Shown in pieces: positions 220 to 2,373 of a stretch of DNA of 5,236 nt. Location: NCBI GenBank assembly GCA_002314465.1, contig DCGA01000091.1:1-5236 (forward strand). The letters run 5' to 3'. The position numbers and the translations under genes are program-made. The notes under the pieces are model-generated. The model worked only from the letters and a program-made list of their open reading frames with translations, did no database searches and was not told the DNA's origin. How positions within the stretch are numbered: the stretch's first letter is position 1; every line of letters begins with the position of its first letter. The stretch is from a bacterium UBA1790. GTDB lineage: Bacteria; Bacteroidota; Bacteroidia; Bacteroidales; Muribaculaceae.

Positions 220-792
220 TTATTTCGTTTTTTTCTTACGCACTGTCCATCCGAAGTGACCCAATTCTTCGCCCAGCGTGTAATAGTGTCCGTGACAGTA
301 GGTTATAAGGTCGGCTTTCTTCAGGTCAAGTGCTCCGGTTTCGGGGTCGAGGTATTTTTCGTCGACGATGACGTTGACCACCTCGGCAAGGAACATATCG
401 TGTGTGCCCAGGCGTAGGATGTCGCGCACGCGGCACTCAATGCTAAGCGGTGCCTCCTCGATGTAGGGCGCATCTACCGTGCGACCCTTTACCGGGGTGA
501 GTTTCATCTCCTCCCACTTGTTGCAGTCGCGTCCCGAGCGCACTCCGCACCAGTCGGTGGCGCGTGCCAGGGCTCGGTTGGTGAGGTTGAGCGTAAAAGC
601 CATGTTTTTCTCCACGATGTCGTGGCTGTGGCGCTCGCGGCGTATCGACACGTAGGTCATCGCCGGGTCGCTGCATATTGTACCCGTCCATGCAGCGGTA
701 AACATGTTATACTCTTCGGGCGTAGAACCGCAACTCACCAGCAGTGCCGGCAAGGGGTAAACCATTGTGCCCGGTCTCCAGTTCTGTTTCAT
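220..792 (-). CDS. Flavin reductase-like domain protein (FMN-binding split-barrel, flavoredoxin-like)
   Basis: This 190-residue protein has the pattern of the flavin reductase-like domain (Pfam Flavin_Reduct). It has an N-terminal strand with [12 protein letters not shown] (11-22), the flavin-contact region [28 protein letters not shown] (29-56, N29, T32, W35 and R51-R54 typical), and the late strand [17 protein letters not shown] (129-145). The C-terminus is strongly basic (RKKKTK). Relatives bind FMN and act as NAD(P)H:flavin oxidoreductases or flavoredoxins in the cytosol; the substrate of this one cannot be read from sequence. Its ATG (792-790) overlaps the pyrI TGA (791-789) as ATGA, so it is almost certainly cotranscribed with pyrBI and translationally coupled to pyrI. 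A role linked to pyrimidine metabolism is only inference from position. Possible electron-transfer partners such as dihydroorotate dehydrogenase are not in the window. Confidence 0.9.
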
Positions 793-1244
793 TTAAGGGT
801 GATTTCTTTCTGGTGAACTGTGCACTCGCAGTGGTGGCAGCGCAGAGTGATATTGCTGCGGTCAACCACATGGAAGTGGGTGCGCATGGGCTCGTTGTTG
901 CTTATGCACTTGGGGTTGTTGCACTTCACGATATTGAACAGTTCATCGGGTACCTCAACCTCATGCTTGTCTACCACCTCGTAGTCGCGAATCACGTTGA
1001 TTATTGCGGTGGGAGCAATCACGGCGATGCGGTTGAGTGTTTCCTCGGGGAAGGTTACGTCGGCAATCTTGATGATGCCTTTCTTGCCCATGTGCACGCT
1101 GTCGAGGTTAAAGCCTATGGTGATGCTGTTGGGCAGGTCTTTGAGGCCGAGCAGGGTTACTACCTTAAATAATGACTCGCTGGGAATATGGTCAATTACG
1201 GTGCCGTTCTTCAGTGCGGCTACTGCAAGTTCTTTCTTTTCCAT
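789..1244 (-). CDS. pyrI: Aspartate carbamoyltransferase regulatory chain
   Basis: The 151-residue product matches the usual PyrI length (about 153). The N-terminal allosteric domain (about 1-100) carries the conserved [15 protein letters not shown] (9-23), containing the region that binds CTP/ATP in the E. coli protein, and ITIGFNLDS (41-49). The C-terminal zinc domain has four cysteines, C108, C113, C136 and C139, in the C-x4-C...C-x2-C spacing needed to hold zinc and contact the catalytic chain. PyrI has no catalytic activity. It assembles with PyrB into the c6r6 holoenzyme and transmits inhibition by CTP (and UTP) and activation by ATP. The gene begins 31 bp after the pyrB stop codon and overlaps the next gene by 4 bp, so pyrB-pyrI-flavin reductase form one operon. 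All key residues appear intact, so allosteric control of ATCase should be functional. Confidence 0.97.
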
Positions 1245-1275: not shown

Positions 1276-2187
1276 TCAACCTTCGATACCGAGTGCTCGG
1301 CATATAATCGCCTGGCGTGCAAACAAGCCGTTCTTTGCCTGCTGGAAGTAGTAAGCCTTGGGGCTGTCGTCCACGTCTTGGGTAATCTCGGTGATGCGGG
1401 GCAGCGGGTGCAGCACGCGCAGGTTGTCCTTGCTGTTGTCGAGCATAGATGCACGCAGGGTGTAAAGGCTCTTCACACGCTCATATTCCATGAGGTCGCT
1501 GAAGCGTTCGCGCTGCACGCGTGTCATGTACAGGATATCGGTTTGGTTGATGATGTCCTCGTCAAACTCGGTGGTCTCGGTGTATTTGATGCCCAGTTTG
1601 TCGCAGAAGTCCTTGTACTGCTTGGGCATCTTCAGTTCGTCGCAAGCCACAAAGTTGAAAGTGGGGTTGAAGTATTGCATTGCCTCGAGCAGAGAGTGTA
1701 CTGTGCGGCCATACTTGAGGTCGCCCACCATAGTGATTGTAAGGTCGTTGAGACGGCCTTGTGTCTTGTAGATGCTATAGAGGTCGAGCATAGTCTGTGA
1801 GGGATGCTGGTTGGCTCCGTCACCGGCATTGATGATGGGCACAGGCGAAATCTCGCTTGCATAGCGTGCAGCGCCTTCCAGGTAGTGGCGCATCACGATA
1901 AGGTCGGCATAGTTGCTCACCATCATGATAGTATCCTTGAGTGTCTCGCCCTTGCTCTGGCTACTGGTCTTTGCGTCGCTAAAGCCTATCACACGGCCGC
2001 CCAGGCGGTTTACTGCGGTTTCAAAACTCAGGCGGGTACGTGTTGAGGGTTCAAAGAACAGCGTTGCGACAACCTTACCCTCGAGAAGGCGCTGGTTGGG
2101 CTGTTTTTCAAACTCTCCCGCTCTTTCAAGCAAGGCCAGAATCTCCTCCTTGCTCAGGTCCGAAATTGATACTAAACTCTTTGTCAT
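1276..2187 (-). CDS. pyrB: Aspartate carbamoyltransferase catalytic chain
   Basis: PyrB condenses carbamoyl phosphate and L-aspartate to carbamoyl aspartate, the committed step of cytosolic de novo pyrimidine synthesis. The 303-residue protein (E. coli 311) has all the expected motifs: the carbamoyl-phosphate loop [13 protein letters not shown] (44-56, with S48, R50, T51 and R52), SKGETL (78-83, K79 corresponding to the mobile active-site lysine of the neighbouring subunit), HPSQ (128-131), the aspartate-binding R223-x-Q225, and HPLPR (260-264). That the neighbouring gene is pyrI confirms ATCase rather than ornithine carbamoyltransferase. The ATG at 2187-2185 is the first start in frame and gives a family-typical N-terminus, [12 protein letters not shown]. 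Expression is probably controlled by the attenuator ending about 30 nt upstream. No Shine-Dalgarno is visible in the AT-rich stretch before the start. Confidence 0.98.
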
Positions 2188-2217
2188 CGTCTTATTGTAT
2201 ATTTACGTTATAGCAAT

Positions 2218-2257
2218 AAAAAAAAGCCAATCACAACACAATGGTTGGGATAGGCTT
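2218..2257 (-). terminator. Leader intrinsic terminator (putative pyrB attenuator)
   Basis: On the minus strand a hairpin spans 2257-2224. AAGCC pairs with GGCTT, ATC with GAT, and CAAC with GTTG, separated by two single-base internal mismatches (T/T and C/T), with a 6-nt CATTGT loop. The 3' arm runs straight into a uridine tract; the run of A on the plus strand is 2218-2225, with the last two inside the stem. There is no comparable T tract on the plus-strand side, so it works only toward pyrB. It lies after the promoter and before pyrB, within the operon's own leader, so it is more likely a conditional attenuator than the end of an upstream gene. The upstream DJ-1/S41 unit already has its own terminator at 2449-2478. 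The first stem base overlaps the leader ORF stop codon. Confidence 0.85.
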
Positions 2258-2358
2258 CACTCTCTGCGACTACGATGCGGCTGCGGGCAGCGCTGAGGCT
2301 GCATGCAGATGTGAGCAGTTAACTCACTGTAGCCAGTATGAAACGCGAATGTTTTCAT
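2257..2358 (-). CDS. Putative 33-residue leader peptide of the pyrB operon
   Basis: An ATG at 2358-2356 opens an uninterrupted 33-codon frame ending at TGA 2259-2257. The peptide begins MKTFAFHTGYSEL and ends PHRSRRE. Its second half is rich in Cys, Gln, Pro and Arg (four Arg, at 23, 29, 31 and 32), with no transmembrane segment or signal peptide. The start lies only about 4-8 nt after the predicted transcription start, so the message would be leaderless or nearly so. The stop codon overlaps the first base of the attenuator hairpin, so a ribosome reaching the end would physically cover the 5' arm. This geometry, more than the sequence, argues for a regulatory leader peptide like enterobacterial PyrL, to which it shows no evident similarity. 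The frame could be accidental (102 bp). Conservation of the reading frame upstream of pyrB in relatives would decide. Confidence 0.62.
   Translation of the reverse strand: MKTFAFHTGYSELTAHICMQPQRCPQPHRSRRE
2287..2327 (-). other. Small RNA hairpins inside the pyrB leader
   Basis: Two short inverted repeats lie in the middle of the leader transcript. One pairs GTGAG with CTCAC across 2327-2311 (7-nt loop). The other pairs GCAGC with GCTGC across 2302-2287 (6-nt loop, GC-rich). The second could instead form a competing GCTG/CAGC hairpin with bases 2291-2280. They end 30 nt or more before the terminator and do not share bases with it, so they are candidates for RNA-polymerase pause hairpins rather than for a classical antiterminator. 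Short stems of this size also occur by chance. Confidence 0.35.
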
Positions 2359-2365
2359 AACACTG
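2334..2365 (-). other. Inverted repeat covering the leader-peptide start codon
   Basis: On the minus strand CAGT (2365-2362) pairs with ACTG (2337-2334), and ATGAAA (2358-2353) pairs with TTTCAT (2343-2338), with a 3-nt bulge and a loop containing ATTCGC. The pairing buries the leader ATG itself. If formed in the RNA it would restrict initiation on a nearly leaderless transcript, but the outer CAGT may be at or before the transcription start, so only the inner 6-bp stem may exist in RNA. It could alternatively be a DNA operator beside the -7 box. Confidence 0.35.
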
Positions 2366-2373
2366 CAAAGGTA
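2366..2373 (-). promoter_or_regulatory. Promoter -7 element of the pyrB-pyrI-flavin reductase operon
   Basis: TACCTTTG on the minus strand is a full match to the Bacteroidota TAnnTTTG -7 motif and continues as TACCTTTGCA, identical to the other two promoters in the window. The preceding bases are T-rich (seven T at 2381-2375). I do not see a clear TTG at the -33 spacing; the best bases there are in GATGTCG. Expected initiation is near 2363-2360, only a few bases before the leader ATG. The element lies downstream of the S41/DJ-1 terminator, so it is the first promoter for the pyr operon. Confidence 0.72.

Follow-up and report, generated by a model that had tools for sequence, protein, structure and literature searches.

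What does a short open reading frame (ORF), followed at once by a terminator-like hairpin, do between the promoter and the start of pyrB in a Bacteroidales genome? The locus lies in a 5,236-nt stretch of bacterium UBA1790 (GCA_002314465.1, contig DCGA01000091.1), hereafter the window, meaning the whole stretch of DNA that was analyzed. The window genome is, judged by sequence, close to Candidatus Sodaliphilus (Muribaculaceae): its pyrB shares 98% identity with the pyrB of Ca. Sodaliphilus fimicaballi (L031) and 96% with the gene from a metagenome-assembled genome from horse faeces (L032). All features of the locus are on the minus strand. The gene order is pyrB, encoding the aspartate carbamoyltransferase catalytic chain (1276..2187, ATG at 2187; Pfam OTCace_N and OTCace), then pyrI, encoding the regulatory chain (789..1244), then a flavin reductase-like gene (220..792) that overlaps pyrI by 4 nt; the latter two were identified by ORF translation and Pfam.

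A first-pass annotation of this DNA had proposed a leader-peptide attenuator built on the logic of the Escherichia coli pyrBI operon, with an unrelated peptide. We find that positions 2373-2218 probably form a translation-coupled transcription attenuator of pyrB-pyrI, likely acting when pyrimidines are scarce. Comparison of leaders across the order gives good support to a translation-coupled device; that it senses pyrimidines we infer.

The pyrB leader region of the window

The leader region comprises a promoter box, a short ORF, and a hairpin with a T tract. The predicted -7 promoter box, TACCTTTG (2366..2373), was read directly and matches TAnnTTTG, the consensus of the phylum (PMC7366714, PMC9723704). 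In Flavobacterium psychrophilum this box occupies -12 to -5 (PMC9723704), and the same position here would put the transcription start at 2361, with a 5′ untranslated region (UTR) of 3 nt. The leader ORF (2257..2358; 33 codons plus stop) runs by direct reading from an ATG at 2358-2356 through the peptide MKTFAFHTGYSELTAHICMQPQRCPQPHRSRRE to a TGA at 2259-2257. It contains the tetranucleotide CATA at codon 7 (2337..2340; +18 from the ATG) and, according to folding, a putative three-way junction (2268..2334).

The ORF ends at the base of a terminator-like hairpin (2223..2258, from folding), whose first bases overlap the stop codon. The stem starts with AAGCC at 2257, and its first base is the last base of the stop. 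The hairpin has a predicted energy of -13.3 kcal/mol (z -3.4), and none of 200 shuffles was equally stable. A T8 tract, read directly at 2218..2225, shares its first bases with the final pairs assigned to the hairpin. A simple hairpin scanner missed this structure because the stem has internal mismatches, and that scanner's hairpin counts in the window were not above its shuffles. The parts list of the first-pass annotation, with box, 33-codon ORF, hairpin and T tract followed by pyrB, thus holds on direct reading, as does the overlap of the ORF stop with the first hairpin base. Farther upstream, a strong hairpin at 2449-2478, between a DJ-1/PfpI-like gene and the pyrB promoter box, is probably the terminator of that gene.

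An open frame is kept in leaders with unrelated peptides

We compared 195 pyrB loci: the window contig, 14 genome loci, 80 named loci, and 100 stretches from further genomes. These 100 stretches represent 60 of 139 and 40 of 152 genomes with a match and were drawn largely from the best-ranking similarity matches, which leaves distant families of the order under-sampled. Removal of near-duplicates and of upstreams shorter than 90 nt left 162 distinct upstreams, 82 of which have a hairpin and T-run ending no more than 150 nt from pyrB. Leaders were then selected blind to ORFs. Selection called for a hairpin of -9 kcal/mol or lower ending 8-125 nt before pyrB that is preceded at 25-190 nt by a TAnnTTTG box and followed by none. 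This promoter box and hairpin combination was found in 43 of the 162 upstreams.

The blind-chosen leaders carry an open frame far more often than shuffled sequences predict. An ATG lies within 40 nt of the box in 42 of 43 leaders (the exception is L185), and in 39 of these 42 (all but L186, L200 and L203) the frame that begins at the first such ATG has no stop codon farther than 12 nt ahead of the hairpin. By comparison, the two alternative frames are open in 13 and 7 leaders, respectively, and 12.9 open leaders would be expected from dinucleotide shuffles. Among the 39, two are short, with 31 nt (L007) and 41 nt (L209) between ATG and hairpin. Frame conservation across Bacteroidales, which the first-pass annotation had named as a check on its reading, is borne out among these leaders. 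Further analyses used 38 leaders, that is the 43 minus L185, L186, L200, L203 and L007, or 37 leaders where L209 was also set aside. The two close relatives of the window, L031 and L032, keep the same box, followed after 7 nt by ORFs of 31 and 33 codons that stop at the hairpin.

Translated leaders give peptides that are unrelated between genera. The window, L031 and L032 peptides share the pattern GYSE..A..CMQ..C.Q...SR. The leader peptide of the window has no Pfam match; against the E. coli PyrL family in particular (PF08052), it gave no match at E up to 0.01, whereas E. coli PyrL itself matches at 3e-34. On this point the peptide is indeed unrelated, as had been claimed. A test by codon position showed no sign of selection on the peptide, with substitutions spread evenly over first, second and third positions (4, 3, 4 for window/L032; 8, 9, 10 for L031/L032; 9, 9, 11 for window/L031; 1, 3, 4 for L143/L147; 2, 3, 6 for L058/L174). 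The last pair also differs by a 2-nt shift, with the frame open in both. Taken together, the even substitutions and the frame that is open after a shift suggest that selection seems to maintain an open frame of set length and not a peptide. An open frame that reaches the terminator while its peptide drifts is what a PyrL-like attenuator working by ribosome occlusion predicts.

Spacing is constrained and the ORF is predicted to start near the 5′ end of the transcript

The distance from ATG to hairpin falls between 77 and 119 nt in 37 of 38 leaders, with L209 at 41 nt. The median of the 38 (94.5 nt) and the value for the window (100 nt) are similar to that of E. coli K-12 pyrL (88 nt). In 31 of 38 leaders, the stop codon covers or lies beyond the base at which the hairpin begins; in the other 7 it precedes that base by 1-11 nt. 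Stop positions thus span -11 to +70 relative to the hairpin start, and for 37 of the 38 leaders a frame open to at most 12 nt from the hairpin was a condition of retention.

The leader ORFs also start close to the promoter. From box to ATG there are 5-10 nt in 31 of 38 leaders (median 9), so that, with the box placed as in F. psychrophilum, these 31 would have 5′ UTRs of ~1-6 nt. Lengths of this order are uncommon: in Bacteroides thetaiotaomicron, ~3.7% of mapped 5′ UTRs are shorter than 10 nt (PMC7366714). The predicted near-leaderless leader ORFs would be new.

The full layout appears to be specific to pyrB. We scanned the window and the 80 named loci (1.02 Mb, both strands) for a box, 5-10 nt, an ATG, 75-120 nt, and a hairpin with T-run. 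The layout occurs in 19 of these 81 sequences, each time before pyrB and nowhere else; of the 25 hits in the scan, 6 are second hits to a leader already counted, and the 19 include L066, where pyrB lies more than 110 nt beyond the layout. Besides the family of the window (f1), leaders of the 38-member set come from ten families (f11, f15, f20, f39, f56, f63, f73, f82, f98 and f101), of which f15 is represented by L209, whose ORF has just 11 codons. The layout is also present in named genomes of Barnesiella and Coprobacter (L058, L085, L088 and L103). Its distribution is nevertheless patchy, as many Muribaculaceae have a plain promoter before pyrB instead. In another 91 upstreams the box is at most 90 nt from pyrB, with a median of 28 nt between box and pyrB ATG; most of these have no room for a leader.

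A CATA element recurs around codon 7

Of 37 leaders, 21 carry the tetranucleotide CATA between +15 and +33 from the ATG, where 5.6 are expected and 200 shuffles gave at most 12. Either CATA or AATA starts at exactly +18 in 17 of the 37. In L143 and L158, CATA is likewise at +18 even though the ATG lies 18 and 20 nt from the box, and so the element seems tied to the ATG. A polymerase pause as the start codon emerges would explain CATA, and its recurrence around codon 7 marks it as a new candidate element. E. coli pyrL has CAT at +18, and 13 of 15 PyrL relatives encode RH at the matching place (P0062 has RQ, and P0048 differs otherwise). However, the 15 relatives, examined out of 71 found, look like close kin, and the agreement with E. 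coli may therefore be chance.

The putative pyrimidine-sensitive pause region differs in the window clade

In E. coli, under limiting UTP, RNA polymerase pauses on the pyrL template, which requires U, and at a hairpin pause (PMC10135430). The average Bacteroidales leader has a comparable U enrichment: U makes up 0.36 of the bases at -24 to -9 relative to the hairpin and 0.24 of those farther upstream, the former value being the higher one in 26 of 37 leaders (P 7e-4). The U-run of E. coli pyrL starts 28 nt before the hairpin. The window, L031 and L032 are without this enrichment, each with 3 T among the 16 bases from -24 to -9. Hence the pyrBI-type logic of the first-pass annotation stands in part. 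The leader ORF does reach the terminator, and its frame is kept in ten further families; the U-rich pause region is missing from the window, and for that reason we rate the element as working like a pyrBI-type attenuator rather than as a member of that class.

The missing U-run means that the pause in the window's clade may be set by stems within the ORF. For the window and L032, folding predicts a common three-way junction. The two sequences differ there at nine positions, eight of them unpaired and one changing a U-G to a C-G pair. L031 retains several of the stem sequences, and its predicted fold differs. The ORF folds have z scores of -2.18 (window), -2.02 (L032) and -0.87 (L031). These stems could conceivably be pause hairpins. 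Across 37 leaders, RNA of the ORF folds more stably than its shuffles do (mean z -1.35), a difference that uneven composition could partly cause, and the best single ORF hairpin is marginally stronger than in shuffles (P 0.057).

Comparison with known attenuators and alternative explanations

The closest known parallel is the pyrBI operon of E. coli, where the PyrL (PF08052) leader ORF also reaches a terminator ahead of pyrB-pyrI. In the average relative of the window, a U-rich stretch and a hairpin upstream of the terminator add to the likeness. Apart from the unrelated peptide and the missing U-run of the window, the two differ in that the pyrL stop lies 47 nt past the hairpin start while the window ORF ends at the hairpin base, and in the 5′ UTR of only ~3 nt predicted for the window. 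PyrR-dependent pyr attenuation in Firmicutes likewise places a terminator ahead of pyr genes; it rests on an RNA-binding protein and an anti-antiterminator. Within the phylum, B. thetaiotaomicron has long 5′ UTRs with short ORFs that have been called “reminiscent of leader peptides” (PMC7366714), and clues for leader-peptide attenuation have been reported before amino-acid operons of Flavobacterium (PMC9723704). The passages of PMC7366714 concerned do not mention pyrB, and neither “Bacteroid” nor “pyrB” occurs in the main text of PMC2965389. Among the matches listed in a search of open-licence literature, with few subscription papers, none dealt with attenuation of pyr genes in the phylum.

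A short ORF ahead of an intrinsic terminator is also the arrangement of trp/his-type attenuators, in which a ribosome stalls at control codons and thereby switches between antiterminator and terminator. Classical amino-acid attenuation of this kind is, however, very improbable here. In amino-acid attenuators, over 20 bp separate the terminator from the stop codon of the leader (PMC4824070), whereas the stop is within the hairpin in the window and in the hairpin or no more than 11 nt away in the 38 leaders. There is no run of control codons, and no residue dominates the pooled leaders; a control amino acid was rejected as a candidate, the commonest residue, Arg, reaching 10%. Pairing of the 5′ arm with upstream sequence is below that of shuffles over 37 leaders (0.24 against 0.37, P 1e-4), which speaks against a favored antiterminator in the order, although it lies slightly above shuffles in the window (0.31 against 0.24), L031 (0.42 against 0.41) and L032 (0.50 against 0.40). 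The layout fits pyrBI-type ribosome occlusion better, and according to a reporter study, the ribosome represses terminators located near a stop codon (PMC4824070). Least probable of all is that the ORF encodes a small protein or arrest peptide with its own function: the peptide pattern common to the window, L031 and L032 would suit it, but even substitutions, the lack of a Pfam match, and peptides that are unrelated between genera argue against it.

Two further explanations concern the signal. The fold within the ORF of the window clade could be a ligand- or protein-binding element that controls the terminator, with the open frame incidental or secondary. The shared junction of the window and L032, with its differences largely at unpaired positions, is consistent with this, as is the distribution of the motif, which 3 of 101 genomes from the genus carry here and nowhere else. 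Yet L031 folds otherwise, the comparison comprises three sequences, an Rfam scan of the window gave no match at E up to 5, and leaders elsewhere in the order keep the frame and not the fold; we regard such an element as quite improbable. Alternatively, ribosome occlusion might operate as proposed while responding to general transcription-translation coupling or growth state instead of pyrimidines. The window leader has no U-run and names no ligand, as this explanation would allow. The restriction of the layout to pyrB in the 1.02 Mb scanned and the U enrichment of the average leader, near its place in E. coli, point the other way, and a signal other than pyrimidines is unlikely.

A model for translation-coupled attenuation of pyrB-pyrI

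In the pyrimidine-responsive attenuator that we favor, scarcity of pyrimidine nucleotides would cause RNA polymerase to pause in the leader. The ORF would be translated from its near-leaderless 5′ end by a ribosome that follows close behind the polymerase and covers the 5′ arm of the terminator. The hairpin would then be blocked, and transcription would continue into pyrB-pyrI. When no ribosome is close, the hairpin and T tract would terminate transcription. The proposed signal is low UTP or CTP; induction at low UTP is what the analogy with E. coli suggests.

A more elaborate reading joins an old PyrL-type attenuator to a leader ORF at the 5′ end, a pause at codon 7, and Sodaliphilus stems that replace the U-run. 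With the ORF starting at the very beginning of the transcript, the first ribosome could load as RNA polymerase leaves the promoter. The CATA element (CAT in E. coli pyrL) might mark a pause near the start codon that synchronizes the ribosome with the polymerase, and the RNA stems might stand in for the U-run as the pyrimidine-sensitive pause in the Sodaliphilus clade. That all of these elements act jointly is speculative and rather unlikely.

If the attenuator works as proposed, textbook transcription-translation coupling would extend to a phylum known for initiating translation without Shine-Dalgarno sequences (PMC9723704), and the leader would be a natural reporter of coupling for gut Bacteroidales. 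Unrelated leaders that share an open frame and no peptide are, on sequence evidence alone, an argument for coupling in this order. With a near-leaderless start and an element at codon 7, the question also arises of how the first ribosome would be loaded in time.

The pyrB locus and other upstream regions

The window PyrB is 55% identical to E. coli PyrB, and a pyrB of this kind, at E up to 1e-80, was found in none of 77 genomes from the same class outside the order. Transfer of pyrBI between phyla, perhaps with the leader included, is conceivable. Within the genus, a close pyrB is missing from many genomes, some of them rated 96-98% complete; matches at E up to 1e-60 occur in 6 of 19 and 6 of 10 genomes in two samplings. 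A relative of the flavin reductase-like gene is present at the same locus in 69 of the 80 named loci.

The motif GATTGG lies in the hairpin region (terminator 3′ arm) of 15 of 38 leaders, across families despite their differing peptides, and this recurrence hints at common descent of the attenuator. Other kinds of pyrB upstream are also present. L003 and L005, from the same genus, have a 5′ UTR of ~80 nt whose ends are partly complementary (AATTAAG with CTTAATC or GTTAATC), with no T-run terminator between them. In L082, L084, L087, L089 and L091, which are without the leader attenuator, GCAGTGAACTCA...TTTCACTGCA is common and ends at the pyrB ATG. These two segments are the complementary ends of a hairpin that abuts the pyrB start codon and is possibly another control of pyrB.
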